From a virus: DNA of 52,013 bases. Below, piece by piece: positions 8,032 to 47,734 of the stretch (position 1 is the first letter of the stretch; each line of letters starts with the position of its first letter). The stretch spans positions 1-52,013 of the IMG/VR virus record IMGVR_UViG_3300032156_000015; one strand, 5' to 3'. The notes under the pieces are model-generated. The model had not been told where the DNA came from, did no database searches, and saw nothing but the letters and a program-made list of their open reading frames with translations. The position numbers and the translations under genes were made by a program.

Positions 8032-8123
8032 GATGAACCTCCCGTAGTGAAATTCGATCTGCCTCATTCAGGCCGTGGTCGATCAGGCCACGACGACCCG
8101 GGCCCGCGCCCAGGTTTCGGCTT
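8032..8123 (-). repeat. Intergenic leader element, copy E
   Basis: The minus strand reads TGAAAGCCGAAACC across the upstream stop (box at 8121-8113). A GGGCGCGGGCCC hairpin and a GTGGCC...GGCCTG arm follow, then GAATTTCACTACGGGAGGTT before the ATG at 8031. It is one of the two best-matching copies of the element, with copy B at 9235-9320. Confidence 0.6.
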
Positions 8124-8339
8124 TCAATCGTTCGCCCAGTAGCCGCTCACGCCGGCCGGCTTGTAGCCGGAGCCGTCGCAGTAGACGCACGGCTCCTCGC
8201 CCGTGCGTCCCGTCCCGCCGCAGCCCATGCATCGGTCGTTCCCGCCGACCAATCCGCCGATTTCGATTTCCATCGGGCCGGAAAGCTGGAGCCGCAGCGC
8301 CTTTTCACCCCGCGTCAGCTTCCTGTGCGGCGCGCTCAT
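8124..8339 (-). CDS. DnaJ-type zinc-finger small protein
   Basis: A 71-residue protein with C-M-G-C-G-G-T-G (~37-44) and C-V-Y-C-D-G-S-G (~51-58). These are two CxxCxGxG-like repeats, as in the zinc-binding centre of DnaJ, here free-standing. Such minimal repeats are common in phage proteins and probably bind zinc for structure. The ATG at 8339 overlaps the upstream stop as ATGA. Function unknown. Confidence 0.75.
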   Translation of the reverse strand: MSAPHRKLTRGEKALRLQLSGPMEIEIGGLVGGNDRCMGCGGTGRTGEEPCVYCDGSGYKPAGVSGYWAND

Positions 8340-8497
8340 CTGTCTTCTCCAGCCTCGATCCGTTCCAGGATGGCGGCATCGATATCGCCCTCGATGGCGG
8401 CGTCGATTTCCGCCTGGCTGGGCCGCGCGTCGGCCGTCTCCTGTCCCTGCCGGAGAACGTCCTCCGGCGCCATGCCATGCATGTTCGCCATTTTCAT
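8336..8497 (-). CDS. 53-aa acidic protein
   Basis: A 53-residue ORF (MKMANMHGMAPEDVLRQGQE...) bounded by ATGA overlaps at both ends (8494-8497 with the upstream gene, 8336-8339 with the downstream gene). This strongly suggests a real, coupled gene despite its size. Acidic, helical, no known motif. Confidence 0.6.
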   Translation of the reverse strand: MKMANMHGMAPEDVLRQGQETADARPSQAEIDAAIEGDIDAAILERIEAGEDR

Positions 8498-8886
8498 TCC
8501 TTCTTGCCCGATTGAAAAATTCCCCAGTTCGGGTCGGGCGTCTCGCCGGGTTTCAGATTTGGCTTTATCACGAGCCGCGCCGCGCGCTGCTCGAAGCGCG
8601 CGATGTCCAGGTGCTCCCAGTCGGCGAACGGACAGTCGGGGTGCTGCCAGTGCTCGTCCATGACCGGCGTCGCCGCATACGGGCAGAATCGGTCGGCGGC
8701 CTTGTCGCAGGCGAAGTTGAAGGGATCGCCCGCCCTGGCCGGGCATTCTTTCTTCCCGCGCTCCCGGAGCCGGCCGTCCATGTAGCCCTTGACGTAGCCG
8801 TTCGGGCCGGCGACGAAGACGCCGCGGCCCTCGCGTTCGTGCTTCGTGCCGAGCGCGAATCCTTTCTCGTAAGTCTTCTCGTTCAT
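8494..8886 (-). CDS. Hypothetical Cys-containing protein
   Basis: A 130-residue protein starting MNEKTYEKGFALGTKHEREG. Four cysteines in the central region (C-P-A, F-A-C-D, F-C-P-Y, D-C-P-F) could form a metal site, but spacing is irregular. No family is recognised. The ATG at 8886 has GGGAGGTTT upstream, as for its neighbours. It heads a three-gene coupled set (8886-8124). Confidence 0.65.
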   Translation of the reverse strand: MNEKTYEKGFALGTKHEREGRGVFVAGPNGYVKGYMDGRLRERGKKECPARAGDPFNFACDKAADRFCPYAATPVMDEHWQHPDCPFADWEHLDIARFEQRAARLVIKPNLKPGETPDPNWGIFQSGKKE

Positions 8887-8988
8887 CGTGAAACCTCCCG
8901 TTTTTATTCTCGACCCTCGCGGGTTCGATTCGTCGCTGTCGGTCCACCATGACCAGGAAGGGGCGGGGCCGCCCGCCCCCCTTCGGCA
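8887..8988 (-). repeat. Intergenic leader element, copy C
   Basis: After the upstream stop, the minus strand has GATGCCGAAGG, a strong GGGGCGGGCGGCCCCGCCCC-type hairpin, then GGTCATGGTGGACC and finally AATAAAAACGGGAGGTTT before the ATG at 8886. The layout follows the other copies, though the first box is CCGAAGG rather than CCGAAACC. Confidence 0.5.
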
Positions 8989-9234
8989 TCATTCCCAGAT
9001 CGTCCGGCCCAAGGCCGTCCGGCCCTTGACCAGACCGATCTCGCGGAGCAGGCCCTCGCGGGCCGCCCGCCGCTCGTTCGCGCGGATCGCTCTCGTCCGC
9101 GCCTTGCACTCCTGGCAGCCGGCCTCGGCGTGGTTCTTCCGCGCCCTGGACCACTCCTCGGTGTCTCCGCCCAGGGACGGCCGCTTCAGGCCGGTCGTCC
9201 GCTCCATGTGCTCGATCCACGTTGTCCTTGTCAT
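8989..9234 (-). CDS. Small phage protein ending in an ALGRTIWE-type motif
   Basis: An 81-residue helical, basic protein with C-Q-E-C (~40-43). Its C-terminus G-L-V-K-G-R-T-A-L-G-R-T-I-W-E resembles a tail widespread in small uncharacterised phage proteins (consensus like GALGGTYWE). Function unknown. The ATG at 9234 has GGGGAGGTTCATC upstream. Confidence 0.7.
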   Translation of the reverse strand: MTRTTWIEHMERTTGLKRPSLGGDTEEWSRARKNHAEAGCQECKARTRAIRANERRAAREGLLREIGLVKGRTALGRTIWE

Positions 9235-9320
9235 GATGAACCTCCCCGTGAATTCTGACTTGCCTCGTCAGGGCCGGGGTTGTCGTCCCCGACCGACCGG
9301 GTCCGTGCCCGGTTTCGGCA
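9235..9320 (-). repeat. Intergenic leader element, copy B
   Basis: Immediately after the TAA of gene 9321-9524 the minus strand reads TGCCGAAACCGGGC (9320-9311 box). A GGACCCGGTC hairpin arm, GGGACGACAACCCC, a GGCC/TGACGAGGC segment and GAATTCACGGGGAGGTT follow before the ATG at 9234. It aligns base by base with large parts of copies A and E. Confidence 0.6.
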
Positions 9321-9524
9321 TTAGGTGAAGTCTGCCAAGAGAACTTTGACGCGTCCCTTGTAGCCGTTCGCCTCGAGAATTGCCTTGACTTCTTTTTCGG
9401 CCTTGGCAATTTCCCGGGCCTTGACCAGCATCCAAACCGGACGTCCCTGGTATGAAACCAGCACCAGCGTTCTCGCGCCCATGTTCTTGTTTAGATTTTT
9501 GCCTTGTTCAGAATAAAGATTCAT
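9321..9524 (-). CDS. Hypothetical 67-aa protein
   Basis: A 67-residue basic protein (MNLYSEQGKNLNKNMGARTL...) with a beta-beta-alpha-beta pattern and no recognised motif. The ATG at 9524 is preceded by GGGAGGTTTCAT. It is the first confident gene of the small-gene unit, about 420 bases downstream of promoter P9986. Confidence 0.65.
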   Translation of the reverse strand: MNLYSEQGKNLNKNMGARTLVLVSYQGRPVWMLVKAREIAKAEKEVKAILEANGYKGRVKVLLADFT

Positions 9525-9940
9525 ATGAAACCTCCCGTTTAATTTCCGGCGACTTATCAGTCATCGGCGGCCAGGTCGTCGTCCCAGCCGGACCTTTGCG
9601 GTTTCGACTTTGTCGGAATTTCAGCGCAGGAGGAGCCGGACTTGCGCCCGGCCCCGCCCTTGCCTCTTGTTAGGGAGATTCACTTTGAGAGGTTCTTATT
9701 TCCCCTACGCGCCGTGTCAGGGCTCGCTCTCCATCACTCGGCTAGGGTGTGGAGGCTTTCGGGGATTTTCTTTCGCCGCCGGCCTTGGTGCTGGTATGCC
9801 TTTGCGGTCGCTCGTGCGGCCGGCGTCAGAGAGGGCTTGCGCCCGGTCTATTGTTTCAAAGAGCAGTCGCGCCGCTCACGGCGGCGGAGGCTAGATGATC
9901 GACCGGCTGACCTTTCAAATGGCTGCTTCGGTCTCTCATC
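9525..9940 (-). promoter_or_regulatory. Long structured leader of the small-gene unit
   Basis: About 415 bases between the predicted transcription start of P9986 and the ATG at 9524, with no convincing gene on either strand. The minus strand has several hairpins, e.g. CGCCGC/GCGGCG near 9888, GGGC-GCAA-GCCC (GNRA-type loop) near 9840 and GCCGG...CCGGC near 9645. The final ~90 bases are intergenic element copy A (box at 9607-9600). I found no tRNA features. It may be a regulatory RNA leader or attenuator. Confidence 0.4.
9856..9939 (-). CDS. Possible 27-codon leader peptide
   Basis: The ATG at 9939 follows GGAG by about 9 bases and lies just after the predicted start of P9986. It encodes MRDRSSHLKGQPVDHLASAA plus seven residues before TGA. 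It overlaps a CGCCGC/GCGGCG hairpin, which would suit attenuation, but the ORF may be fortuitous. Confidence 0.2.
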   Translation of the reverse strand: MRDRSSHLKGQPVDHLASAAVSGATAL

Positions 9941-9950
9941 TCATTAGCTC

Positions 9951-9986
9951 CATATACAATATAAAAGAAAATCAAAGGAATGTCAA
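9951..9986 (-). promoter_or_regulatory. Consensus sigma70-type promoter P9986
   Basis: On the minus strand TTGACA (9986-9981), exactly 17 bases, then TATATT (9963-9958) and GTATATG. The 36-base block from -35 to GTATATG matches the plus-strand promoter at 13734-13769 at 33 of 36 positions. It lies between the terminator near 10.06 kb and the small-gene unit that it would drive. Confidence 0.85.
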
Positions 9987-10045
9987 ATTATTTTAGCTAT
10001 TTTTGGCCTTGTAAATAGCTTAAAATGCTGGATTTACGGGTATTT

Positions 10046-10090
10046 TGAAAATAAATCGCCCCGTGCAGGGACGGAATGGGCGATTATTTG
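10046..10090 (-). terminator. Terminator after the lipoprotein gene
   Basis: On the minus strand AATCGCCC (10085-10078) pairs with GGGCGATT (10061-10054) across a 16-base loop, followed by TATTTT. It lies about 45 bases past the lipoprotein stop and upstream of P9986, closing the radical SAM module's transcript. Confidence 0.6.
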
Positions 10091-10132
10091 GCCTTTTGGC
10101 CGGATGAATGGAAAGGACGGCGCCGGGCTGGC

Positions 10133-11473
10133 CTAGAAGGTTCGGCGTGGGTCGACACCGAAGACTTGGAGCCCGGTCTGCCAGAACATGTCGAGCGAGA
10201 CCTGCTTCACCTTGTCCAAGCCCTCGTCGAAGGCTATCTCGCGGGGCATGTATTCGATGACTCGGAACCGTCCCTCATCGATATGCCGCTCGAACAAACG
10301 AATGAGCGCAATCTGCTCGGCGGTGTTCGCTGAGCATCCGTTCATCTGGTCGCACGTGCCGGCGACCTCCTTCGGCACATTCGTTCCGTCATTCGAGTAG
10401 CCGAACGGCCGCGTGACGGAGATGCCGTCGAGCCATTCGTCTACCGTTTTGCCCTCGACTGTCTGCCCCGTCCAGCCGATGCCGTGAAGGACCTGGCAGA
10501 CGAAGAAGTTGTCCGGGTAATAGCCGTCCTCCGAGGAGACGCAGCCGATAATTTTATGTGCCGTGTTGCAGCAGCCGGAGAACGTGACCGGCCTCGGCAT
10601 CCCTAGGCTCACGAGATAGTCGACTCTTTGGTGACCGGCCCATTCCAGGGCCCACTCGCACGAGCCGACGAGGTCACCGTCGGCGATGTGGCGGAGCTCA
10701 TTGCCCAGGCCGATGTGGTTGCCCTCGATGCCGCCGATGTCGTTCAGGACGCGTTCGACAGCGAGCCGCCAGAAGCGCAGCGCCTCGGGCGTCGTTTCCT
10801 GCCAGCCATAAATGGCATTGGCGTTCACGCGCCAGCAGTCCCAGGAGTCCCCCCATCCGCACTGGTCGGCCATGTCGATGAGCAGGCCGACCTCGTATTT
10901 CTGGAGCGCCAGGGCTAGCCTCTGGAGGTTCGTGTCGTAGGCGTAGTTTGGCTTCGTGAGGTCGAATTTCCCATCCGCGTTTTTGACATACGGAAGGATG
11001 CACTCCTGGCCATCCTCCCATCCTGGGTAGAATATCCTGACCCACCGCACGCCGGCCTCGCCGATGCGCCGGCAGGCCGAATCCAGCTCCTCATCAGTCA
11101 TACGCTGGACCTTGCTCTGTCCGTCGAGCCAGCCGAGGATGAGCCACGGCCGGACCAGGGCGTTGCGGGCATGTCTCATGCAATAGAAGGTCGGCCGCTC
11201 GGAGACCGGGACTTCATGCGTCGCCGGACAGGAGACGGCCGCAGTCCGGCCCGTTTCGTCGCAGACCCGGACCGTCGGCTCCTTGTGTAGCTGGCATGGG
11301 ATCGTCGGCTGCTGACCGAGCGTGAACTGGCGGTTGACGACCTCCGGGCACCACTTCGTCGGCAACAGGCCAGAAACGGAGCAGATGTCGACCCAGACGT
11401 AGTGCGTCGGCGGCGGACAGGCGGCGGCCAGGAAAGCCAGGATGAGAACGAGCGTCAGGACGGATTTTTTCAT
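10133..11473 (-). CDS. Lipoprotein with PBP-tail-like repeats and a glycosidase-like barrel
   Basis: A 446-residue protein. The N-terminus is a signal peptide ending L-A-A-A-C (C19), a slightly off-consensus lipobox that predicts a membrane-anchored lipoprotein. Residues ~28-102 hold two related Cys modules (I-C-S-V-S-G-L-L-P...W-C-P...C-Q-L-H and V-C-D-E-T-G...S-C-P...C-M-R-H). They resemble the short C-terminal segment of class A penicillin-binding proteins. From ~105 there is a TIM-barrel-like domain with W-V-R-I-F-Y, L-L-I-D-M-A and G-L-G-N-E-L (E259). Clan A glycoside hydrolases place their acid/base Glu after Asn in this way; E407 in V-I-E-Y-M could be the nucleophile. Surface glycan or peptidoglycan targeting is an inference. 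It is the last gene of the radical SAM unit. Confidence 0.75.
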   Translation of the reverse strand: MKKSVLTLVLILAFLAAACPPPTHYVWVDICSVSGLLPTKWCPEVVNRQFTLGQQPTIPCQLHKEPTVRVCDETGRTAAVSCPATHEVPVSERPTFYCMRHARNALVRPWLILGWLDGQSKVQRMTDEELDSACRRIGEAGVRWVRIFYPGWEDGQECILPYVKNADGKFDLTKPNYAYDTNLQRLALALQKYEVGLLIDMADQCGWGDSWDCWRVNANAIYGWQETTPEALRFWRLAVERVLNDIGGIEGNHIGLGNELRHIADGDLVGSCEWALEWAGHQRVDYLVSLGMPRPVTFSGCCNTAHKIIGCVSSEDGYYPDNFFVCQVLHGIGWTGQTVEGKTVDEWLDGISVTRPFGYSNDGTNVPKEVAGTCDQMNGCSANTAEQIALIRLFERHIDEGRFRVIEYMPREIAFDEGLDKVKQVSLDMFWQTGLQVFGVDPRRTF

Positions 11474-11495
11474 TCTTTACTTCCTGTTTTTTTGA

Positions 11496-12377
11496 TTACT
11501 TGCGCCTGAATGGAAAGACGAGCCCCGCGGCGGCCTCCTCCGGTATGAAGTCGCCCTCGGCCTCGACGACCAGCCGGCGGTCCTCGGCGACCGACGAGGT
11601 GATGATGTAGAAGAGCGGCGTCCGCACGACGGCCGTGCCGGCCAGCACGTCCCAGGACATCGGCATCCGCAGCAGCCGCTCGAACGCCTGGAGCGGGCCC
11701 TTGTCCTCGGCCAGCCCCACGCGCCGCTCGGCCTCCGCGATCGTCGCCGCGCAGGAGAACGAGCAGGGGATGTGGAAGCAGACCCGGACGCCGGCATAGC
11801 GGAGCATCGGGTTCGACCAGGGATGCTTCTTGACCCTCACGCGGTCGCAGTTCGGAATATCCTGGATGCAGAAGCTATCGGCGCCTCCCGAGTTCTCGGC
11901 CGCCTGCCAGATAGGGTCGATATAGCCCTTCGTCCACCACTCGGAGAAGAACTTCGTGCAGCAGGGCGGGAAGCCGAGGTAGTGGCCCTGCTTCTCGTGG
12001 TCGCCGGCCTCGAAGGCCAGACGGTATCCGACGGCGTCCTCGAAGCGCTTGGCGACGATGAAGCAGACGTTGTCTGTCCCGTCGTTGCGGGGTGCCTCGT
12101 GGTAGTGCGCGAAGCCGGCCGGCGACGCGCCGACCTTCTTGACCGGCAGCACGAGGAGGCCCATCGCCATGAGCTTCGCGAGCGTGAACAGGAAATCCTT
12201 CTCCGGGATCTGCTGCCAGGCGCACGGCCGGTGGCCGGCCAGGACGGAAAGCACCTCGAGTTCGTTGACGAGCGTTGAGGCGCGGGCGATAGTCGGCTCC
12301 CAGGCGGCCCGGGCGGCGGACGACACCCAGGCCAGCCGCGAGAAGGCCGGCACCTTGAGGCCCGGGATGAGGCTCAT
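11496..12377 (-). CDS. GFPPCC-motif protein (DUF483-like), partner of the radical SAM gene
   Basis: A 293-residue soluble protein. Its hallmark is L-G-F-P-P-C-C (134-140), like the G-[FY]-P-x-C-C motif I associate with DUF483-type proteins, followed by F-F-S-E-W-W. Other cysteines (C52, C105 and three in the 170-210 region: F-C-I-Q-D, N-C-D-R-V, V-C-F-H-I-P-C-S-F-S-C) suggest a metal or redox centre. The ATG at 12377 overlaps the radical SAM stop as ATGA, so the two are coupled and probably act together. The biochemical role is unknown; a partner or second maturation enzyme is the working idea. Confidence 0.65.
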   Translation of the reverse strand: MSLIPGLKVPAFSRLAWVSSAARAAWEPTIARASTLVNELEVLSVLAGHRPCAWQQIPEKDFLFTLAKLMAMGLLVLPVKKVGASPAGFAHYHEAPRNDGTDNVCFIVAKRFEDAVGYRLAFEAGDHEKQGHYLGFPPCCTKFFSEWWTKGYIDPIWQAAENSGGADSFCIQDIPNCDRVRVKKHPWSNPMLRYAGVRVCFHIPCSFSCAATIAEAERRVGLAEDKGPLQAFERLLRMPMSWDVLAGTAVVRTPLFYIITSSVAEDRRLVVEAEGDFIPEEAAAGLVFPFRRK

Positions 12378-13687
12378 CGCCGCGTTCCCGCCTGCTTCTC
12401 CCAGCCGGGGTTGGCCGCGCGCCAGGCCGGATCGTCCGAGTCGCCGTGGCCGCGGTCCCCGTGGCCGGAGGCATCCGCGGCGGCCTGGGCGACGCCGGCT
12501 TTCTTCTCCATCTCCTTCAGGCGCTCGATGGAGACGGCCTTGCAGCGCGACGAGGCGCTTCCGGCGACGGAACGGATGAGGAGGTCGATGCCGGGCCGCG
12601 AGTCGTAGTCCTGGGCCAGCACGGCGTTCGGGAAGAGGCCGCGCAGCCGGCGCTCGACGTCCTCATAGAGCGACTTCCAGGCCTCGCAGTGCCGCGTCCG
12701 CAGGCGCCAGTCGCCGCCGATGGCCGAGCCGGGACAGTTGCCGCGGCAGACGGGCCAAAACCGACAGCCCTTGCAGCCGCCGAGATCCTGGGCGAGCTGC
12801 GGGAGGAAGATGGAGCGCGTGTCCTGGAAAGCGTCGGCCCGGAGCGCGACGATGCCGTCCACGGACGCCCCGGCCCGCAGGCAGCAGCCGATGGAGCCGT
12901 CTTCGAAGGCCGGCTCCTCGCTCGAGGTGCGCCAGGGATCGCAGCCGTTGAACACGCAGACCGCCTCCCGGGCGCCGAGCATGAGGTCGACCACGTCGCG
13001 GAACGGCCGCCAGTCTCGGCCAGGCTCCTGGAAGCAGACCTCGGTCAGGTGGCGGAAGGCCAGGCCGAGGTCTTTCATCGACAGCTCTGCCTCCGGGAGC
13101 TCGTAGGCCGTGCCGGCGTGGAAGGTGTGGTGACGGATACCGAGCGCGTACATCCCCAGGACGAATTCGATAAATTCGCTCAGGGCTTCTCCGCGGGCGT
13201 TGTAGTTCCAAAGCGTCGACATCAGGCTCACGGGGACGCCGGCCTCGATGAGGTCCTTGATGTTCCTTACGACCCGGCGCGTGCCACGCTCGGCATCCTC
13301 CGCCGCCATGCCCGGCGCGTCCCAGCGGCCGCGGTTGAGTTCCGGCGTGTCGCCGTCGAGCGAGACGCCGACGTCCACCTTCCACTTCTTGAACAGCGCG
13401 ATCCTCGCGCCGGTGATGGCGATGCCGTTCGTCTGGACGCCGACGTGGCCGAACCGCTCGACGGCCGCCTCGAACAGCCGCTCGAGCTCCGAGTCGGAGA
13501 ACAGGAGCGGCTCGCCGCCGTGGAGGTAGGGCGCCGAGGTCGAGCCCTCGATTTTAGGCCAGGCCTTGACGACCTCGACGAGTTTCGCGACGTCCGGTTC
13601 GCGGTCCGCGCCGCGGGCCCGGCGGATGCGGCGCTCGTAGCAGTTGGCGCACCCGGCCTGGCACCTGAGGGATTTGATACTGACCAT
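12374..13687 (-). CDS. Radical SAM/SPASM enzyme with an HGD-repeat tail
   Basis: A 437-residue protein. C9-x3-C13-x2-C16 followed by Tyr is the radical SAM [4Fe-4S] motif. H-G-G-E-P-L (~57-62) matches the G-G-E-P strand of the family, and V-Q-T-N-G and V-S-L-D-G-D follow as expected. Residues ~245-345 carry a SPASM-like Cys set, including G-C-K-G-C-R-F-W-P-V-C-R-G-N-C-P. SPASM enzymes usually modify peptides or proteins. The C-terminus (407-422) reads SGHGDRGHGDSDDPAW, echoing the His/Asp repeats of the tail hub one gene away. The ATG at 13687 is chosen over a TTG at 13696. It is coupled to the GFPPCC gene. Too long and too SPASM-like for QueE. Peptide modification is inferred. Confidence 0.85.
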   Translation of the reverse strand: MVSIKSLRCQAGCANCYERRIRRARGADREPDVAKLVEVVKAWPKIEGSTSAPYLHGGEPLLFSDSELERLFEAAVERFGHVGVQTNGIAITGARIALFKKWKVDVGVSLDGDTPELNRGRWDAPGMAAEDAERGTRRVVRNIKDLIEAGVPVSLMSTLWNYNARGEALSEFIEFVLGMYALGIRHHTFHAGTAYELPEAELSMKDLGLAFRHLTEVCFQEPGRDWRPFRDVVDLMLGAREAVCVFNGCDPWRTSSEEPAFEDGSIGCCLRAGASVDGIVALRADAFQDTRSIFLPQLAQDLGGCKGCRFWPVCRGNCPGSAIGGDWRLRTRHCEAWKSLYEDVERRLRGLFPNAVLAQDYDSRPGIDLLIRSVAGSASSRCKAVSIERLKEMEKKAGVAQAAADASGHGDRGHGDSDDPAWRAANPGWEKQAGTRR

Positions 13688-13695
13688 TCGCCCCA

Positions 13696-13739
13696 ATTCT
13701 AGGACGGCCTGGAAACGGCTGTCAAGAAAAATCTTGACA
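13696..13739 (-). promoter_or_regulatory. Possible divergent promoter with an inverted repeat
   Basis: A perfect inverted repeat TGTCAAGA-AAAA-TCTTGACA (13720-13739) gives a -35 TTGACA on each strand. On the minus strand TTGACA (13725-13720), an 18-base spacer and TAGAAT (13701-13696) would start transcription almost at the ATG (13687) of the radical SAM gene. That would be a near-leaderless message. The repeat may also be an operator controlling both directions. Confidence 0.45.
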
Positions 13740-13776
13740 AACCTTTGCTTTTCTTTTATATTGTATATGTAAGGAG
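13734..13776 (+). promoter_or_regulatory. Consensus plus-strand promoter and ribosome site of the moron gene
   Basis: TTGACA (13734-13739), 17-base spacer, TATATT (13757-13762), then GTATATG and AAGGAG (13771-13776) six bases before the ATG at 13783. It is one of the strongest promoters visible in the window and the only one pointing right. The core is a near copy of P9986 (33 of 36 bases). Confidence 0.85.
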
Positions 13777-13782
13777 ATTGAG

Positions 13783-14160
13783 ATGAAAAAGACGCTAACG
13801 GCGCTAGTCCTCCTGGCCGGCCTGGCCGGAACGGCGATGGCTGATAATGGGAAAAAGCCGGACCTCGTCTTTTTCTCCCTGGCCGCCGCCAACGTGGTCG
13901 CGGGAACGATCGACATGGCGCTCGGCCTCTCCAACTACAGGGCCGGGCGGATCGACGAGGCGAACCCGGCCGCGAAATACATATTCGACAACTGCCCCTG
14001 GGCGGCCCCGTTCTACATGATCGCCACCACCGGGGCCCTGATTCTCGGCTCCTATATTCTGGACGGAATCGGCCTCCGGCCGCTGGGCTCGATGGTGCTC
14101 ATCGGGGCCCTGGTAGGCCGCGGATACGTGATCTATCTCACCATCAAAATCGCCGGATGA
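13783..14160 (+). CDS. Membrane protein 'moron' with signal peptide (DUF5658-like)
   Basis: A 125-residue protein and the only confident plus-strand gene. Residues 1-21 (MKKTLTALVLLAGLAGTAMA) form a Sec signal peptide with an A-M-A cleavage site. Three hydrophobic segments follow (~31-50, ~83-98, ~105-124). The E-A-N-P-A-A segment between the first two is reminiscent of DUF5658-type small membrane proteins, a weak match. A private consensus promoter, opposite strand and placement between two tail-region units are the hallmarks of a moron, a gene expressed independently of phage development. Such genes often alter host surface or block superinfection; that role is inferred. Confidence 0.8.
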   Translation: MKKTLTALVLLAGLAGTAMADNGKKPDLVFFSLAAANVVAGTIDMALGLSNYRAGRIDEANPAAKYIFDNCPWAAPFYMIATTGALILGSYILDGIGLRPLGSMVLIGALVGRGYVIYLTIKIAG

Positions 14161-14166
14161 TCCGGC
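14146..14166 (-). terminator. Weak terminator at the end of the tail operon
   Basis: On the minus strand GCCGGA-TCA-TCCGGC (14166-14152) is followed by GATTTTG. It lies just past the hub stop at 14174 and overlaps the end of the moron gene. Tail transcripts would end here before the radical SAM module. Confidence 0.45.
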
Positions 14167-14173
14167 CCGCCCC

Positions 14174-17100
14174 TTAATAATCCACGTCCCCGTGCGGGGA
14201 ATCCTCGTGCCACCAGTCGGAGTGGTCGGAGTGCGTGGCGTCGATATACGGGACGTCGCCATGGTCGTCGTGGTCGGAGTGCGGCGTGTCGGTATGTAGC
14301 CACGAAGATCCATCGCCGTGAGGCGTGTCTCCGTGAGGCCAGGTCCAGTCGTCGTACGCCTCATCGAAGTGATCGCCATGGTCGTCGTGGTCGGAGTGCG
14401 GCGTGTCGGTATGTAGCCCGTCGCCATGGTCAACGTGCAGCACGTCTCCATGGTCCGTGTAATCCTCGTATGGGCTATCCGAATGGGGGCCGTCGTCGTG
14501 GCTCCCATCAGTGTGGTCGGAGTGCGGCGTGTCGGCGTGGAAGGAGCCGGCCGCCTGGGCGTCGTTCAGCCCGACGAAACCGACCTTGCAGCTCTCCAGA
14601 TCCTTGTCGAGCTCGAAGAGCCGGAACGCCTCGAGGTCGAAGACCTTGACCAGCTCGCCGGTCTCCATCACGACCGACTTGTCGAGGATGATCTTCTCGG
14701 TCGGCAGCATGTCGAGCGCCCGCGCGTTGAGCGCGCCGACCGCGTAGTCGCCCGGAAACATCAGCAGCGCCTCGTGCAGGTCGGCCGTGGCCTGGGCCTC
14801 GGATTCGACGATGAGCACGGTGTTCAGCGTTACGGACTCCGTCTCGTCGAAGCGGCAGATCGTCTTCCATGCCGGTGAGGTGACCGAGCGCCATGCCGCT
14901 ACGCCGGAGGCGGCGGCCGGGTTGAAGCGGTAGTTGAGCACGACCATCTGGCGGATACGCTCGGTGTCAGTAACACGCCTGGGGGGCTGGTCACGATCGA
15001 ATTCATCGGCGAAAAAGGTGCGCGTCGAGCTGTCGATGCCGGCCTGGTAATATGTTACGGTGAACTTGTTCTGCAGGTCGGGGAGGAGGTGGAACAGGCA
15101 GGAGATTATCAGCATCCGCAGCCACTCGATGCCCTCCGTCGCGTCCTTCATCCACCATCCGCAGGTCTGCGTGCGGACGGCCTTGAACGCGAGGAACGCC
15201 GGAGGGTCGAGCAGGCCGGGATCGATGCCCCAGAGCGCCGTCATCGTGTGCCACAGGAAGTCGGAGACGTTGGCCGAATAGAGGCCCGTTACCTGGTCGA
15301 TTTTTATGCCGCGCAGGTCGCAGGTGACGAGCTCGTCGAGCGGGTCGGCCAGGAGCGTGAACTCGCCGTTCGGCAGGTCGACCGTGTAGTCGACGCCCAG
15401 CACGAGCGTCGTCGAGCCCTTGCGGACGGCCGTGATGGCGTCGATGGCGTAGGCGGAGGGCTTGTACTTGTGCGCCGCGGTGTCGATACAGGTCGGGTTG
15501 CAGTTATAGCAGAGGCCGAACGGGATCGGGATAGGCCAGCCCTCGGCGTTCGGGTCAAGGTTCGCGTAGACGAGGGACGAGAAGCGCGTCAGCGGCAGCA
15601 TCTTGAACTTGCCCTGGCGGTTGTCCTTGCAGTTGAACGTCGCCTCCTCGTCGCCGTACTCCTTGCGCCGCACGAGGCCCGAGAAGACGACGGCCAGCTC
15701 ATTGTAGGCGGAGCCGATGGCGCCGACCTTCGCCTCGACGCGGGCGTTCTCCAGGTAGAGTTCGTTGCGCACCTTGTACCAGAAGCCGTCGTTGTTCGCG
15801 ACGATATCGGTGTCGAAGGTCGGGATATCGCCGACGTGGTACTCGCCGACGGCCTGGCGGATGGAGCCGATGGCGTTCGCCGGCAGGTAGGGCAGGTAGT
15901 AGACCGGCCCGCAGAGGCAGTCCTGCGGCGTGAAGGCGACGACGGGCGTCGCGGCCGACGGCATGGCCGGCTGATAGTTCACGAGCGGCAGCCAGAAGAA
16001 TCCCAGGATGAGGTAGAGATAGCCATTGCTGTCCTGCGCAGACGGGAGATCGTTGCCCGAGGTGTGGACGTAGAGCGTCGGCCCCGAGCAGTCGAAGAAG
16101 AATGAAGACAGGGCGTTTTGGACTTCCTCGACGGAGGTTTTCCGGTCATAGTCGGCGCAGTCCTCGGTGACGCGCACGATCTCGCCCCAGATCGGCCAGG
16201 AGAGTGAGTAGGCGCAGGTGTCGTCGAGCGAAGGGTTCGACTCCAGCGTGCCCCATTCGAGCTCGTTGTCCGGCTCGGTGATGTTGCGGTACTCGAACTT
16301 GAAGTACTCGGGCGGGCGATCGGTCACGGAGACCCGCGCCTCGTCCATGACCCCGTCATAGTTAGTCCCAGCGGCGGAGTTCCATTGATACCGACCTAAA
16401 GTCAGAATGCTACTGACCTGGGCTATGGTAATCGCGCGCTGCCCCTCATATTCGCCATTAACATAGAGCTTAAGATTCGTTCCATCGTAGGCGACGGCAA
16501 CGTGGTATATGTTTCCCACGATAAAGGTCGCCGACGTTGTAAAATTATAGCCGACGCCGACTCCGGCCCCTGTCCCCCAGGCGATGCTGACTTGATGCGT
16601 CCCGGTTATTCGAAAGCAGAGGCCATTCGCTGGCGCATTATATTTCCAATTCGAGATAAGTCCATGACCATAGGGGAGGAAGCTATCCGGTTTCGCGAAA
16701 GTCTCGAATGTTATGTTTGCAGGCAAGGTCGTCGCGGGTGTGTTGATATAGTCGTCCGCGCCGTCGAAGTCCTGGCCCTTAGCGACGACGGCGTTCACCT
16801 CCAGCGGCTCGTTGGCGCCCTTCTTCGTGCCGTCCAAGTTATTCGCTGTGCTGTCCTGAACAGTCGAGGTGTTCGGGTCGTCCTTGAGGTGGAAGACGGC
16901 GTGGAAATTCGCCTCCCAGGTGTTCGGCACGTCGGCGCCGTCCGGCGCCCCGGCCTTGCCGAAATAGACGTAGATGTACGTGCCGCCGGCCATCAGGATC
17001 GTCGGCACCTTAGTCCAGAAGTCGGCCGTGGCCAGGCCGCCGGCGACGGCCCAGGCCTCGCGCTCGTACTTGAGCAGCGTCTTGCCGTCGGCCTCCGTGA

Positions 17101-17359
17101 AGCGGATGTCGAAGCCGGAGGCGAGCGCGAGGGCGCCGATGTCGGCGTCTGCCTTGATCGGCACGTAGAGCGGGAAGTCGGTGAGGTCGGCGATGACATA
17201 GGCGTTCTGGACGAGGATGCGCTTCCGATAGGCCCATCCCGTGAGCCACGGCCGGTATTCCTGCGTCCAGGCCTCGCGCTCCAGCTCCTTGCGCGGCTGG
17301 AACTCGACGACGAGGAGCTTCTCGGCGTCGGGGAGCGCGGCGAATTCCTCGAACGTCAC
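14174..17359 (-). CDS. Tail hub/fibre protein: DUF2341 + LamG + hub + His/Asp-rich tail
   Basis: A 1061-residue protein starting at GTG 17359 (GAGGTGAGG upstream). Residues ~38-135 are a DUF2341 domain (G-W-A-Y-R-K...D-L-T-D-F-P-L-Y-V...F-D-I-R-F-T-E-A-D-G). Residues ~150-350 form a LamG/concanavalin-like lectin domain. Residues ~370-930 are tail-hub-like with several Cys pairs. Residues 939-1061 contain 23 His and 32 Asp in 123 residues, with repeats of H-T-D-T-P-H-S-D-H-D-D-H-G-D. It follows the tape measure and distal tail genes, the usual place for hub and receptor-binding genes. Lectin and DUF2341 parts suggest glycan binding; the His/Asp tail suggests metal binding or modification. The LamG part is AT-richer than its surroundings. 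Confidence 0.8.
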   Translation of the reverse strand: MTFEEFAALPDAEKLLVVEFQPRKELEREAWTQEYRPWLTGWAYRKRILVQNAYVIADLTDFPLYVPIKADADIGALALASGFDIRFTEADGKTLLKYEREAWAVAGGLATADFWTKVPTILMAGGTYIYVYFGKAGAPDGADVPNTWEANFHAVFHLKDDPNTSTVQDSTANNLDGTKKGANEPLEVNAVVAKGQDFDGADDYINTPATTLPANITFETFAKPDSFLPYGHGLISNWKYNAPANGLCFRITGTHQVSIAWGTGAGVGVGYNFTTSATFIVGNIYHVAVAYDGTNLKLYVNGEYEGQRAITIAQVSSILTLGRYQWNSAAGTNYDGVMDEARVSVTDRPPEYFKFEYRNITEPDNELEWGTLESNPSLDDTCAYSLSWPIWGEIVRVTEDCADYDRKTSVEEVQNALSSFFFDCSGPTLYVHTSGNDLPSAQDSNGYLYLILGFFWLPLVNYQPAMPSAATPVVAFTPQDCLCGPVYYLPYLPANAIGSIRQAVGEYHVGDIPTFDTDIVANNDGFWYKVRNELYLENARVEAKVGAIGSAYNELAVVFSGLVRRKEYGDEEATFNCKDNRQGKFKMLPLTRFSSLVYANLDPNAEGWPIPIPFGLCYNCNPTCIDTAAHKYKPSAYAIDAITAVRKGSTTLVLGVDYTVDLPNGEFTLLADPLDELVTCDLRGIKIDQVTGLYSANVSDFLWHTMTALWGIDPGLLDPPAFLAFKAVRTQTCGWWMKDATEGIEWLRMLIISCLFHLLPDLQNKFTVTYYQAGIDSSTRTFFADEFDRDQPPRRVTDTERIRQMVVLNYRFNPAAASGVAAWRSVTSPAWKTICRFDETESVTLNTVLIVESEAQATADLHEALLMFPGDYAVGALNARALDMLPTEKIILDKSVVMETGELVKVFDLEAFRLFELDKDLESCKVGFVGLNDAQAAGSFHADTPHSDHTDGSHDDGPHSDSPYEDYTDHGDVLHVDHGDGLHTDTPHSDHDDHGDHFDEAYDDWTWPHGDTPHGDGSSWLHTDTPHSDHDDHGDVPYIDATHSDHSDWWHEDSPHGDVDY
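14177..14545 (-). repeat. His/Asp-rich repeat region with 46-bp direct repeats
   Basis: Codes residues 939-1061 of the hub. At DNA level 14256-14301 and 14373-14418 are identical over 46 bases, and a shorter third copy begins near 14513. The repeats keep the reading frame, so copy number can change without disrupting the protein. Confidence 0.85.
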
Positions 17360-17363
17360 GGCC

Positions 17364-18164
17364 TCACCTCAGCGTCTCGATGTCTATGGAGAGGTCCCAC
17401 TTCTCGCGGTGCTCGATGTCGAGCCGGCCGTGGCCGGCGAAGTGGCCCCATTCGTAGCGGTTGAGCTGGCAGTAGAAGAAGTTGCGCGGCGACGGCTCGC
17501 GGTAGTCCTCGCAGAACCAGAAGCGGCCGCCCAGGCCGACGGCCTCGTAGAACGCCTCGAAGAGGTCCGCGTCCGGGCCGTCGACGGCCATGAACTTGTA
17601 GTTGCGCGTCTGGTACTTCTGCCGCCGGACGGTCGAGATCTGCCCGCCCTCCGAGTACTTGCGGACGGTCGGGTCTTGCGGGAGGCGCCCGCGGCCGGGC
17701 GCGAAGTCGCGCGCCGGCTGGAAGCACGATCCGAGGAACAGCTTGCCGACGTCGTGGTAGGCCCAGCCGGACGGGGCAGCCGCCTCGTCGATGGTCAGGC
17801 GCCAGACGGGCTGCGCCGAGGGTGGGGCGAGCGCCGCGTAGATGAGCGCGTTCGGGTTCGAGCCGAGCGGCACGCCCTGCGACCACTGGAGCGCGTGGCC
17901 CGCATTGTAGGAGGCGAGGGTGAGGACGGCGGCGGCCGAGACGTTCGCGTACCAGACGATGAGCGCCTGGGGGAGCAGGCCGGCAGGCAGCGCGCCCGAG
18001 ACGTCGCCCTCCGCCCAGGCAATCGCCGCGGCGCCCGTCGTCCGCCAAGTGCGTGACGTCCAGCGGTGCTGCGTATTCTCGACCGGCCAGCCGAACGCCT
18101 CGTCCGAGGCCGTCAGCGCGCAGAGCGGCCAGGCGTTATCGTAGAAGAAGCGCGTGTGTCCCAT
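17364..18164 (-). CDS. Distal tail-like structural protein
   Basis: A 266-residue protein. The ATG at 18164 is preceded by GGAGG 8 bases upstream; an ATG at 18185 lies inside the tape-measure gene and lacks such a site. The N-terminal half is beta-rich (~1-130). The C-terminal half has Y-K-F-M-A-V-D-G-P-D-A-D-L-F-E-A-F-Y and F-W-F-C-E-D-Y-R-E-P, typical of tail-tip beta-sandwich proteins. Its position between tape measure and hub matches distal tail (Dit) proteins. Assignment rests on order and fold type rather than a family signature. Confidence 0.65.
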   Translation of the reverse strand: MGHTRFFYDNAWPLCALTASDEAFGWPVENTQHRWTSRTWRTTGAAAIAWAEGDVSGALPAGLLPQALIVWYANVSAAAVLTLASYNAGHALQWSQGVPLGSNPNALIYAALAPPSAQPVWRLTIDEAAAPSGWAYHDVGKLFLGSCFQPARDFAPGRGRLPQDPTVRKYSEGGQISTVRRQKYQTRNYKFMAVDGPDADLFEAFYEAVGLGGRFWFCEDYREPSPRNFFYCQLNRYEWGHFAGHGRLDIEHREKWDLSIDIETLR

Positions 18165-18166
18165 AG

Positions 18167-21061
18167 TCAGAACCTCCGCCCCCATGACCGGGCATGGAAC
18201 AGGACTTGTTCGTTTTTAGAGAGCTGCGGGGTCAGGCGAACTAACGCTCGGCGGATACCGCCGCTGAGTTTGAGGTCGAGCGGCTCGCCCTCGAAAAAGA
18301 TTTGGATGGGCCGCTGCTCCTGCGCGGAGGCCGGCGAGGACGAGGCGAAGTGCGACCCGAGAATCGGCGACGCCGGCAGCACCCTCTCGCCGGCGTGGAC
18401 TACGGCCAGCATCGTGCGCGGCACGTAGCCGCCGCCCTGCATGTGCGTGACGCCCTTGATGGCGTCGACGATCGCCTGGCCCCAGTAGGAGACGGCATCC
18501 CGCGTCTCGACGAGCCGGCCGTGGAGCTCGTAGACGCAATAACGGATGGATTCGAAGACGCCGTCCCATGACTCGACGTAGCCCATATAAGAAATTCTCA
18601 GCCAGTCGGCGGTTTGGCGGGAGGAATCGGTAATGAATTTCAGCCAGTAGGTGATGTCCGTATTGCTATCCTTTTTGAATAGAGCCAAGACAGAAGCAAC
18701 GGCCGTCACAACGCCGGAAATCGTGTTAACCACGCTCGTCGCGGCGCCGGCGATGGCCCCGGTGGCGACCTTCGCCGCGCCTCCCGCGACATCGCCCGTC
18801 GTCTTCATGACCGTCTCGCCGATGCCGACCAGGCTCTTTGTGGCCTTGGCCGCGGCGCTCGCCGTTTGGCCGACAAGAGCGTCGAGCAAGAAATTCTTCA
18901 CCCACTTCGTAATCAGTTCGCCAACCATCGTCTTGAAGGCGTCATAGATGCCCTCGATGGATTTTCCGATAAGCGGCGGGAGCGAATCCAGGCTATTCTT
19001 TACACTCGTCGGCAGGGCAAGACAGTCTGATGCGATCCCGCCAATCGATCCGGCAACGTTATCGCGGAGGTTCATCCATTCCTGGGCATAGTCGCCCAGC
19101 TTCAGCATCGCCATCTCCTCCCGGAGCGCCTGCTGCTGGCGGATCGGCATAGTGTCGCCGTAATCCTGAAGGAGTGTCGTTATCGTCTTGATTCTTGCCG
19201 CATCATCAAAAGTGAACGCCTCTTCCATTATGGCGATGAGGTCGGCCATCTCATCGCGGCTCCCGCCTGCCGCATCGCCTACATCGCGCAGGTAGCCATC
19301 GAGCGGAACGTGGGTAAATTCCCAAGCCGCTTTCCGCCCCTCCAGAAGCAAGTCCGGGATTTCTTTTATCTTGGTGGTAGCGCGCGTGACCTCGTCATAC
19401 CAGGTCTTGATGACGACCGCCTCCGAACTGAATTCATGCGTCAGGTCCGGGAGATATTGCGAGCTGAGTGTCAGCGTCTCCCGGCTCATCCCCATCATCG
19501 CGAATTCGGCGTTTTTTATCTGCTCATTCAGGTCGTATTGTTCCTTGGCCGGAAGCTCCGATCCGTATTTCGCCCAGCGCAGCTTGAGCTCATCGAGGTG
19601 GAGCGACATAGCTACCATCGGGTCGTTCGTGTCGACCAGCATGGTTTTGAGCTTCAGAATCTTTTCCGTGAGTGCCTGGACGGCGGCCGGCGTGTCCTGG
19701 TGTGCCTTATGCAGCGCGACTAGCGCGTCCTCCGCCTCTTTGATCTGCGTGTTGACGTCGGTACGGAGCGTGAGGCCGAGCTTCTTGGCCATCGCCTCCA
19801 GATCGGTCAGGCCCTCTATCTCGATCGGGAGGTCGACGAGAAACTTCTTCGTGGTCCCGATTAGTGTTCTTAGAATTTGCTCATAGCCCTCCATTTGCTT
19901 CGTCGTCAGGATCAGCGGCGTCAGGGTATCGGATATAGATTTCCAGAGTGCGGTCCCGGCTTCGCCTGCTCCGCCCATCGCCAAACCGGCCTGCGAACAA
20001 TCGCCGGCCATGAGCCTTACGGAGGCGCCCATTTTGTCGGCGTCGCTCGCGCCGTCGAGCAGGAAGTTCAGGAACGGGAGCCCTCCGGCCGTGAGGTCGG
20101 TCATCTTGATGTCCAGGCCGGTTAACTCCTTGAGGAGGTCCGGCAACTGGGAGATGAGCATGAGGGCGTTCGCGGAGAGCTTGATGAGGTTCTCGGCCAG
20201 CGTGAAAACCTGCCCGGCGAGCTCCTTGACGCTCTCGATGAGCCAGGGGTTCTGCTCAAGCCACTTGCGGACCCCGGCCACGACGTCGACGAGCTTCTCG
20301 GCGACGGCCGTGAAGAGCGGCATGAGCGCCTTGCCGAGCTCCATCGTCACGCCCTGTACGGCCCCCTTCAGCTCCGTGAGCGTGTCGTTGAATTTGTCGC
20401 CGGCTGCGGCCGTCTCTTCGTCGATGACCAGGCCGAGCTCCTTGGCCTTGGCGGTCAGCTTCTCGAGGCCGTCGCGCCCCTCGTTGAGGAACGGGATGAG
20501 CTCCATGCCGCTCCTCCCGAAGAGGTCGATGGCCAGCGCGACCTTCCCTGCGCCATCCTCCATCTTCGAGAAACGGTCGGCGACGTCGAGCATGACATCG
20601 TCCATGTCGCGGAGGCCGCCCTGGCTGTCCTTGATGTCTATCTTGAGTGCCCGGAACGCGTCGCCCGCCTTACCCGTCCCCTTCTGGGCGTCGTCCATCC
20701 CCATCCCGAGCTTCTTGAAGCCGGTTGCCAGGCCATCAATCGACGTGCCGCTTTCCTCGGCGGCCAGCTTGAGGCCGGAAAGCGTCTCGACGGAGACGCC
20801 CGTCTTGAGGTGCAGCTCCCAGAGCTTGTCGCCGTAGTCGGCCGTCTGCTTGACGGCGGCGGCCATGGCCCCGACGATGGCCAGGCCGGCCCCGGCGGCC
20901 ATCGTCCCGACCCCGCCGAAGGCCGTGCCCAGGCCAGCGAGCGGACCCTTGGCCATGCCGTCGGCCTGCGTCTTCGTCTCCGCCATCGCGGAGTTCCAGC
21001 CGGACTTGTCCAGCACCAGCTTCGTGAAGATGGAGCCGGCGAAGAAGCCGCCCATGTCCAT
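18167..21061 (-). CDS. Tail tape measure protein
   Basis: A 964-residue protein, the second-largest in the tail module. It starts MDMGGFFAGSIFTKLVLDKS. A Gly/Ala-rich hydrophobic segment lies at ~40-72 (L-G-T-A-F-G-G-V-G-T-M-A-A-G...) and the L-H-L-K-T-G-V-S-V-E-T-L-S-G-L-K repeat-type segment follows, both common in siphophage tape measures. A second hydrophobic Gly/Ala block lies at ~750-815. Tape measures set tail length and help DNA delivery. At about 1.5 Angstrom per residue a tail near 140-145 nm would be expected. It lies directly after the G/GT chaperone genes, as usual. Confidence 0.92.
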   Translation of the reverse strand: MDMGGFFAGSIFTKLVLDKSGWNSAMAETKTQADGMAKGPLAGLGTAFGGVGTMAAGAGLAIVGAMAAAVKQTADYGDKLWELHLKTGVSVETLSGLKLAAEESGTSIDGLATGFKKLGMGMDDAQKGTGKAGDAFRALKIDIKDSQGGLRDMDDVMLDVADRFSKMEDGAGKVALAIDLFGRSGMELIPFLNEGRDGLEKLTAKAKELGLVIDEETAAAGDKFNDTLTELKGAVQGVTMELGKALMPLFTAVAEKLVDVVAGVRKWLEQNPWLIESVKELAGQVFTLAENLIKLSANALMLISQLPDLLKELTGLDIKMTDLTAGGLPFLNFLLDGASDADKMGASVRLMAGDCSQAGLAMGGAGEAGTALWKSISDTLTPLILTTKQMEGYEQILRTLIGTTKKFLVDLPIEIEGLTDLEAMAKKLGLTLRTDVNTQIKEAEDALVALHKAHQDTPAAVQALTEKILKLKTMLVDTNDPMVAMSLHLDELKLRWAKYGSELPAKEQYDLNEQIKNAEFAMMGMSRETLTLSSQYLPDLTHEFSSEAVVIKTWYDEVTRATTKIKEIPDLLLEGRKAAWEFTHVPLDGYLRDVGDAAGGSRDEMADLIAIMEEAFTFDDAARIKTITTLLQDYGDTMPIRQQQALREEMAMLKLGDYAQEWMNLRDNVAGSIGGIASDCLALPTSVKNSLDSLPPLIGKSIEGIYDAFKTMVGELITKWVKNFLLDALVGQTASAAAKATKSLVGIGETVMKTTGDVAGGAAKVATGAIAGAATSVVNTISGVVTAVASVLALFKKDSNTDITYWLKFITDSSRQTADWLRISYMGYVESWDGVFESIRYCVYELHGRLVETRDAVSYWGQAIVDAIKGVTHMQGGGYVPRTMLAVVHAGERVLPASPILGSHFASSSPASAQEQRPIQIFFEGEPLDLKLSGGIRRALVRLTPQLSKNEQVLFHARSWGRRF

Positions 21062-46071: not shown

Positions 46072-46743
46072 CTATTCCTTGACCTCGACAGGACTGGCCA
46101 GGAAGTCAGCAGCCATGAGTTCCAGGGCACGTCCTCTGGCGGTCTCGCCGGCGATCCCTTCGTCTTTTAGGATTCGTTCAATGGCCTCGTTTATAACGGC
46201 GGCTTGGGCCTCAGAAACGACGAACTTGAGCTCTTGCCAGTTCTCTTGATTCGCGGACCCCATGTCCTTCTTTTCCGGGGGCTGCCACGGGACTTCCTCT
46301 TTAGCGTTGAGGTCGAACTTCGTGAGCTCCAGTAGGTTGTCAATTTCGTCCTGCTTCAAGGGAAGGTCCAGTACGACCTCCTCCATGGATTCATGCTCAA
46401 GAACGCCTTTGATAAGCTGGCCGGCCCGGAACGGATCGTATTCGCCCTTCGTCTCATTGAGGATGAGTGTCAGCTTTTTCGCCACTGAATCACTCACTTG
46501 ACCGAGGTTGATGACCGGAACCTGTTTTATGGCGAGCTCCTTTGCGGCCTTCCAACGATACTCGCCGTCGATGATCTGCAGCTTATTCCCCAGAAACTCC
46601 CTGACGGTTATCGGGTCGATGAAGCCAAATTTCTTGATGCTGTTCTTTTCTTTTTCGAAGATAAAGTCCGACTGGACGTTCGGGTTCCAGGGATTCGGCT
46701 CAAGCTGTTCGATGGCAACGATCGTGACGGCTAAATCCTTCAT
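46072..46743 (-). CDS. ParB/Srx-fold protein
   Basis: A 223-residue protein. I-E-Q-L-E-P-N-P-W-N-P-N (~11-22), F-G-F-I-D-P-I-T-V-R-E (~39-49), Q-I-I-D-G-E-Y-R-W-K-A-A (~56-67) and V-P-V-I-N-L (~74-79) are the ParB/Sulfiredoxin core with the G-E-x-R-W phosphate-binding motif. Phage ParB-like proteins bind or act on DNA or nucleotides and often sit next to terminases. It is coupled by ATGA to the DpdA-like gene, which suggests a shared role. Confidence 0.85.
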   Translation of the reverse strand: MKDLAVTIVAIEQLEPNPWNPNVQSDFIFEKEKNSIKKFGFIDPITVREFLGNKLQIIDGEYRWKAAKELAIKQVPVINLGQVSDSVAKKLTLILNETKGEYDPFRAGQLIKGVLEHESMEEVVLDLPLKQDEIDNLLELTKFDLNAKEEVPWQPPEKKDMGSANQENWQELKFVVSEAQAAVINEAIERILKDEGIAGETARGRALELMAADFLASPVEVKE

Positions 46744-47522
46744 GATTGGTCTCCTGCATATCGTTTGTACTCCTCAAGAAAAAAAACGCCAGCCCAATAT
46801 CGGTCAGTAAGAGGCCTTGTGCGATATTTCAAGGGCTGTCCTTTAACTGTGTCCTTTAGTATTTTCCATTCCTGCGCGACTTCACCTCCCCATCTAAAAT
46901 GAGACTGCCAGGAGGTCGAGTCACAAGACGTGCAGTGGCGGAAAAGCTTCATGAACCAGGTTTCCGTCAGACCCAGGAGATGAACCCGCTTCCCCTTGGC
47001 CATCGCCCGGGACGCAATATAGCTTGTGATTTGAATGCGTTCCTTTTTGGACAGTGCTCTTCGGAGCTCAGGCTGCGAAATTGCGATGTAGTCCGCCTCG
47101 TTGATTAGCGCATCAGGATTCCCGTCCTCTAGGTGATAGACGTTTATAAGCGACCCACCCCATTGATTTTTTAGTTCTCTTTTCAGCTTTCGTCTCAGCT
47201 CCCAGGCGACCTCTGAACCAAGTTTTTTTTGAACGTCCATCTCGACGGCGATGTCGTTTGCCGTAAAGTATTTTTTTAGGTATTCTATATAATTTTTCTG
47301 CATTATATTACAGAAGTCTACCGTGATGTCTGTCCCAGCTTCTGCGCCCCACATGTAGGTAAAAAGGCCGGAATCAATCATGATATTCTTATACTGCATG
47401 AGCGATTGCTGCTGCGCTTCGGTCAGTTTTTCGTGGTGGTAGAAAGATAGAAGGATATATTTTACATTGGCTTCATGAAGCGCCGAAATCCCTTCTCCGT
47501 CGGCGCCGAAATAGACCTTCAT
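46740..47522 (-). CDS. dpdA: DpdA/TGT-like 7-deazaguanine transglycosylase
   Basis: A 260-residue protein from ATG 47522 (ATGA with the upstream gene). I-M-I-D-S-G-L-F-T-Y (47-56) resembles the D-S-G-G-F motif of tRNA-guanine transglycosylase with its first catalytic Asp (D50). V-E-M-D-V (93-97), H-L-L-G-L-T-E (181-187) and C-T-S-C-D-S-T-S-W (197-205, D201 as the likely nucleophile) follow in family order. It is shorter than tRNA TGT and lacks the zinc-binding tail, as in phage DpdA relatives that insert 7-deazaguanines into DNA. QueD lies two genes upstream. The base actually made is unknown. Local GC is ~40%. Confidence 0.75.
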   Translation of the reverse strand: MKVYFGADGEGISALHEANVKYILLSFYHHEKLTEAQQQSLMQYKNIMIDSGLFTYMWGAEAGTDITVDFCNIMQKNYIEYLKKYFTANDIAVEMDVQKKLGSEVAWELRRKLKRELKNQWGGSLINVYHLEDGNPDALINEADYIAISQPELRRALSKKERIQITSYIASRAMAKGKRVHLLGLTETWFMKLFRHCTSCDSTSWQSHFRWGGEVAQEWKILKDTVKGQPLKYRTRPLTDRYWAGVFFLEEYKRYAGDQS

Positions 47523-47734
47523 GCCGTCACCTCCGCTCCGTTCTCTCCGTCCTCGAGAACGCGGCATCGGCTCAGCGCGAAGCGGCATAGCAGTTCTGTC
47601 GCTATCGTCTCGCAGCTCTTCGCCCCGAAATCCCAGGTGACCCCGAGGCTCTTTTCTATCGTCTCTTTTAAGGTGATTATCTCAACCGTTCGCCCCCTCC
47701 CCCTGGAGGCTATAAAATATTTCGCTGACCTCAA
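47519..47734 (-). CDS. 71-aa protein between QueD and DpdA
   Basis: A 71-residue protein coupled at both ends by ATGA overlaps (47731-47734 and 47519-47522). The segments V-E-I-I-T-L-K-E-T-I-E-K and S-C-E-T-I-A-T-E-L run in the same order as V-D-F-K-V-L-D-E-I-I and P-T-A-E-N-L-A-I-M-L of the adjacent QueD. It may be a half-size T-fold relative, a weak resemblance. Otherwise unassigned. Confidence 0.55.
   Translation of the reverse strand: MRSAKYFIASRGRGRTVEIITLKETIEKSLGVTWDFGAKSCETIATELLCRFALSRCRVLEDGENGAEVTA

Follow-up and report, generated by a model that had tools for sequence, protein, structure and literature searches.

What does a radical S-adenosylmethionine (rSAM) enzyme do beside a phage tail protein that ends in dense His/Asp repeats? 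The question is raised by IMG/VR virus record IMGVR_UViG_3300032156_000015, whose whole 52,013 bases are called the window here. A preliminary description of this DNA pointed to a SPASM-type rSAM gene, an adjoining gene for a GFPPCC protein and a tail hub with a His/Asp-rich end, and proposed that the repeats are either the substrate of the enzyme or a metal-loaded region, as a new way to mature a phage tail tip. We suggest, with a probability of about 0.58, that the rSAM/SPASM enzyme and the GFPPCC protein, a probable member of the DUF483 group, form a two-gene maturation module that cross-links triplets of a neighbouring virion protein.

The enzyme pair and the hub repeats

The window rSAM has an intact CxxxCxxC AdoMet motif at residues 9-16, as first described, and matches Pfam Radical_SAM (PF04055, E 5.6e-13). 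The SPASM pattern CX9-15GX4C - CX2CX5CX3C - C is also complete (C249-x14-G264-x4-C269, C305-x2-C308-x5-C314-x3-C318 and C334, plus C244). The Fe-S ligands are intact, and 45 diverse rSAM homologues show no change at the three AdoMet cysteines or at eight cysteines of the SPASM region. All 45 match a group of curated families that includes AmcB, YhhB and the dynobactin enzyme DynA, with scores far below the cut-offs. Among PDB sequences ChlB matches best (E 0.004); its structure was solved with the precursor leader. A Foldseek search with the rSAM model placed the anaerobic sulfatase-maturating enzyme (anSME) at the top and ChlB second.

The HGD-type end of the enzyme, SGHGDRGHGDSDD from residue 407 (HGD...HGD), agrees with the preliminary reading. 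Its HGDxxD columns are invariant in eight homologues and at least one His-x-Asp (HxD) is found in the rSAM tail at 59 of 74 repeat loci, some members being tail-less yet keeping the repeats. The triplets in the enzyme's own tail perhaps serve docking or self-modification. Two tandem rSAM copies are present in L005 (8470-11920), L047 and L080, and the enzyme's own tail holds up to ~25 HxD.

The start of the GFPPCC gene overlaps the rSAM stop as ATGA, so the coupling noted earlier stands. PF04467 (DUF483) matches 30 of 40 partner homologues, at best with E 9.8e-8. For the window protein no match was obtained at E 0.01, and it aligns with the DUF483 homologues, with the invariant residues given in Table 1. 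About one third of the homologues have DUF483 fused to a methyltransferase domain. The predicted model (predicted local distance difference test, pLDDT, 93) had no convincing match among PDB folds (best 2guk, Z 6.6 over 102 residues), and the DUF483 profile had none among PDB sequences. The DUF483 protein is a dedicated partner of rSAM and would probably present the substrate or carry out a second step.

Exact counting bears out the 23 His and 32 Asp reported for the last 123 residues of the 1061-residue hub. All 23 His begin an H-x-D triplet (mean 5.9, maximum 14 when these residues are shuffled 20,000 times), and the wider [HYFW]-x-[DN] pattern occurs 27 times (mean 9.0, maximum 18 in 20,000 shuffles); no HxD triplet was found in the hub outside this stretch. 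The hub lies one gene upstream of rSAM, as described, and is not its direct neighbour: a single opposite-strand open reading frame (ORF; 13783-14160, plus strand) separates them. We infer the identity of the hub from the gene order (tape measure, Dit-like protein, hub). Its body is homologous to the hubs of L006, L004, L011, L014, L018 and L019, its PHROG matches are limited to families of unknown function or LamG type, and its profile had no match among PDB sequences. Residues 82-343 hold DUF2341 and LamG-type domains that are absent from the relative in L006 (715 residues), and this stretch appears from the sequence to be a domain insertion near the N-terminus.

Association of the three genes in viruses and cells

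The alignment-based scan of IMG/VR detected 121 rSAM relatives, and 79 loci were retained. The set of family loci without near-duplicates numbers 72 and comes from phages, haloarchaeal plasmids and bacterial chromosomes. A nearby repeat protein was detected in 68/72 and a DUF483 protein in 67/72. In 62 of these loci the repeat gene lies upstream on the rSAM strand, 48 times within 200 bp (median gap, 4 bp). As the negative control, 77 more distant SPASM loci of bacterial genomes, picked up by the family scan as well, were used, and neither dense HxD arrays nor DUF483 were found in any of them (0/77). The densest 60 residues hold at least 10 aromatic-x-[DN] triplets in 115 of the 124 family loci, counted with duplicates, compared with at most 9 in the controls. 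The tree of 75 family members and eight control SPASM enzymes splits the two groups with a support of 99. The preliminary description had named regular occurrence of the rSAM without a repeat partner as evidence that would refute it, and such occurrence was not seen; the apparent exceptions are mostly contig ends or non-HxD repeats invisible to an HxD-only search. The enzymes of L032 (8-kb contig) closely resemble those of the Thermus phage phiLo, in which the repeat genes lie some kilobases off. Among annotated phages, matching rSAM and DUF483 genes were found only in the Thermus phages phiLo, phiMa and Cumys.

The search starting from the repeats gave a similar picture: irregular in-frame arrays among the matches listed are mostly in contigs with rSAM and/or DUF483, and many of the matches listed are microsatellite-like or out-of-frame DNA. 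Arrays with neither gene, among the matches listed, are those of L096/G005 (17.8 kb contig) and of L099 and L185 (array at the contig edge). The 205,857-base record L155 encodes a 2312-residue Cys-/Thr-rich protein with exact HTDTA arrays, L158 has a low-complexity HDD array, and L175 (36 kb contig) has an array of the type seen in L125 and L181; rSAM and DUF483 are absent from all three, whereas the contigs of L125 and L181 have DUF483.

The repeat carriers are varied. In the window the hub carries the repeats, as first described; elsewhere the repeats are not confined to hubs and are often in small fibre-like proteins or, in acidobacteria, in short free peptides. The L232 locus (Bryobacterales genome) encodes a 67-residue peptide with seven HxD beside a 665-residue ORF (9980-11974), in which rSAM is joined to a DUF483-like part, and the acidobacterial L315 locus (8103-11992) encodes a 106-residue peptide with 10 triplets beside the rSAM and DUF483 genes. 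Both peptides look like precursors of ribosomally synthesized and post-translationally modified peptides (RiPPs) and provide the best support for the repeats as the substrate. The L315 locus also adjoins a DUF364 'putative heavy-metal chelation' gene. In the Halomicrococcus plasmid L317 (1116-8498), a Baseplate J gene, an aromatic-x-Asp protein, rSAM and DUF483 are found, and this is a provirus-like archaeal version of the module. The repeat proteins of L005, L007, L058, L070, L233 and L317, from very different viruses, have a common N-terminal module with repeated 'GSIWVEG...' motifs before the repeats, possibly a common fibre attachment domain.

Motif grammar of the repeats

The analysis covered 14,093 residues in 82 repeat regions, non-redundant and picked by HxD. 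Asp is at +2 of 94% of 2524 His, a figure that is partly circular because the regions were chosen by HxD. The other aromatic residues are free of this circularity: Asp stands at +2 of 37% of Tyr, 33% of Trp and 25% of Phe (which has Asn there in another 15%) versus at most ~5% for every non-aromatic residue tested. With the His pairs locked, 345 Tyr/Phe/Trp-x-[DN] triplets were observed against 78 expected (maximum 105 in 1000 shuffles). The main triplet type is FxN in L058 (37) and HxN in L070 (16); L083 has 48 FxN, 56 HxN and 54 HxD, and L021 and L024 have many WxD and YxD. The conserved unit is an aromatic ring with Asp or Asn two residues on, rather than simply His/Asp. The origin of YxD by neutral His-to-Tyr decay was rejected, since residues one step away from CAY are otherwise mostly rare there (Gln 9, Arg 1, Leu 6, Pro 16 and Asn 15, but Asp 84) compared with Tyr 173, Phe 58 and Trp 37.

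The middle residue of the triplet is free and the spacing of triplets irregular. Pairing of the aromatic residue with Asp/Asn at i and i+2 around a free middle residue suggests that the two side chains react together. Cys, Lys and Met (0.3% each) and Arg (0.6%) are nearly absent from the repeats, arguing against thioether or Lys-based cross-links.

Proposed function and alternatives

The repeats are very probably the substrate of the enzyme pair. The earlier proposal that the enzyme acts on His/Asp repeats is sustained by the association and its empty controls; its motif has to be widened to aromatic-x-Asp/Asn, and the modification itself we infer. By analogy with known cyclophane enzymes, the chemistry would, with slightly better than even odds, be an i to i+2 cross-link. 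The rSAM, assisted by DUF483, would remove hydrogen at the beta-carbon of Asp/Asn, and this carbon would then be bonded to the aromatic ring (His, Tyr, Trp or Phe) two residues earlier, so that every triplet would become a rigid three-residue cyclophane. The repeat tail could then form a stiff, protease-resistant tail-tip or fibre segment, a mechanical role that we propose tentatively. It is conceivable, at somewhat less than even odds, that bacteriophages and a provirus-like plasmid of haloarchaea have a widespread viral system by which tens of triplets in tail-tip/fibre proteins form a cyclophane virion armour, with ancestry in common with bacterial peptide-making clusters.

Several observations weigh against the cross-linking module. 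Neither a leader peptide nor a RiPP recognition element was identified, and the cyclophane model leaves the enzyme's own HGD tail unexplained. The window rSAM scores 53 bits against a cut-off of 425 for AmcB, its best family, and is far below every cyclophane equivalog cut-off (AmcB, YhhB, XyeB, FxsB), with the sulfatase maturase family close behind the cyclophane families, so the chemistry is not fixed by sequence alone. The repeat type has no clean pattern on the rSAM tree. Repeats are missing beside the rSAM and DUF483 genes at two loci, one on a Bradyrhizobium chromosome amid further rSAM genes (L234) and one on a Halorussus plasmid (L316).

The association data would serve equally if the repeats were the substrate of some other radical modification (epimerisation, beta-oxidation, another His-Asp bond, or methylation by the fused methyltransferase found in part of the DUF483 homologues), and the chemistry of SPASM enzymes is diverse. 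We consider this alternative unlikely, though a real contender, as the invariant i/i+2 pairing with its free middle residue points to side chains reacting together. The idea that the repeats only dock the rSAM tail, as scaffolding or assembly tags, while another virion site is modified would account for the HGD/HGDHxD tails of most rSAMs; it is improbable given the tail-less members that keep repeats and the acidobacterial loci, where the repeat peptide stands out as the candidate target. Equally improbable is an unmodified, metal-binding and tail-stabilising repeat region with the rSAM acting elsewhere. His and Asp are classic metal ligands and a heavy-metal chelation gene lies near one acidobacterial locus, but the Phe-x-Asn and Trp-x-Asp variants have no His ligand and most irregular arrays come with rSAM and DUF483. 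Metal loading, the other half of the first proposal, was dropped as the leading reading and is disfavoured as a general function by the FxN (L058), HxN (L070) and Trp/Tyr-x-Asp (L021, L024) variants, Phe-x-Asn not being expected to bind metal as His-x-Asp might.

A 2024 paper (PMC11437467) describes rSAM and DUF483 together with a third gene, both in Cumys/phiMa and in prophages, and suggests DNA modification from the cyanobacterial context, in which the homologues lie near deazapurine genes. The window has a Tgt/DpdA-like gene adjoining a ParB_N protein, in keeping with that suggestion; the gene is 33 kb from the module, though, and its family occurs in 2/36 family records (the window and one other, many records being fragments) and in 0/3 Thermus phages. 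The QueE-like match is weak (E 8e-4), while SPASM and the repeat association indicate peptide substrates. Deazapurine DNA modification by the module was rejected on the rarity of the Tgt/DpdA marker, and we regard it as very improbable.

Maturation by rSAM enzymes has so far been described for small peptides and for single sites in enzymes. In the present family, gene neighbourhood and motif grammar tie an rSAM to virion proteins that are large and have as many as dozens of sites, in many phages and also in archaea, which provides a concrete, testable function for DUF483 proteins and for the puzzling HxD repeats. The system is widespread and has isolated representatives. If the cross-links exist, they would be a new way of building tail fibres and the family a source of repeat-tolerant cyclophane enzymes, and the DNA-modification suggestion would have to be revised for the isolated, cultivable phage Cumys/phiMa (Thermus thermophilus HB8).

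Layout of the locus

The module and the adjoining tail genes are given in Table 1. The ORF between the hub and rSAM encodes 125 residues, is membrane-like with a weak DUF5658 match, and is antisense to both genes; promoter-like sites, divergent, are on both strands of this interval. At 46072-47588 (minus strand) the window has a queuine tRNA-ribosyltransferase-like gene adjoining the ParB_N protein. This Tgt/DpdA-like gene (46740-47588) matches phrog_887 (E 4.6e-18), with no PF01702 match at E 0.001, and deazaguanine DNA modification by the window phage is possible.

Table 1. Coordinates of the module and of the neighbouring tail genes in the window
Feature	Position	Strand	Remarks
GFPPCC protein, probable DUF483 group	11496..12377	-	293 aa; invariant C139, C140, D154, C209
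Radical SAM/SPASM enzyme	12374..13687	-	437 aa from ATG; alternative TTG start at 13696 gives 440 aa
rSAM C-terminal SGHGDRGHGDSDD, HGD tail	12431..12469	-	starts at residue 407; most homologues share the HGD tail
Sigma-70-like promoter TTGACA-18-TAGAAT	13696..13725	-	just upstream of the rSAM-DUF483 pair; 11/12 matches, by consensus only
Tail hub/Tal-like protein	14174..17359	-	1061 aa, GTG start; LamG domain at residues 199-343; C-terminal repeat extension; proposed substrate
Repeat region of hub	14177..14545	-	123 aa; 27 aromatic-x-Asp/Asn triplets, 23 of them His-x-Asp
Tail protein, Dit-like position between tape measure and hub	17364..18185	-	phrog_8610, E 3.7e-8, unknown function; role suggested by gene order
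Tape measure protein	18167..21061	-	matches several PHROGs annotated as tail length tape measure, the best of these at E 2.1e-43

Comparison with known systems

The anSME, which oxidises Cys/Ser of a sulfatase, has the SPASM architecture in common with the window rSAM and is the top structural match of its model; in contrast, no sulfatase was seen at the window and the repeats lack Cys. The His-Xaa-Ser system (HxsB, TIGR03978) is, by its family name, an rSAM maturase for His-containing repeats, but the window rSAM reaches 22.8 bits against a cut-off of 370, outside this family, and the repeat is HxD, not HxS. Open literature on rSAM with tail fibres or HxD repeats gave nothing relevant besides PMC11437467. 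The phiMa/Cumys module of that paper is of the same gene family as that of the window, so the rSAM-DUF483 pair had been noted before; the aromatic-x-Asp repeats are not described in its available text, and the HxD-repeat gene directly upstream of rSAM in these phages was found here. The HxD proteins of Cumys and phiMa are Cumys_13 and phiMa_29.

The closest parallel is to the three-residue cyclophane-forming SPASM enzymes (3-CyFE), linking i to i+2 in Trp-Asn/Asp, Phe-Asn, Tyr-Asp, His-Ala and His-Arg (PMC11002830). As for the triceptide enzymes (XncB, OscB, MscB, YxdB, HaaB and YhhB; NCBIfam AmcB/YhhB/XyeB/FxsB), we detected a SPASM enzyme, an aromatic-x-Asn/Asp (i, i+2) substrate motif next to it and, at some loci, a short adjacent peptide. 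The window rSAM is far below the curated cut-offs and not filed in any of these equivalogs, and the family differs further in its HGD enzyme tail, its dedicated DUF483 partner and its putative product, which would be formed at tens of triplets in mostly large virion proteins.

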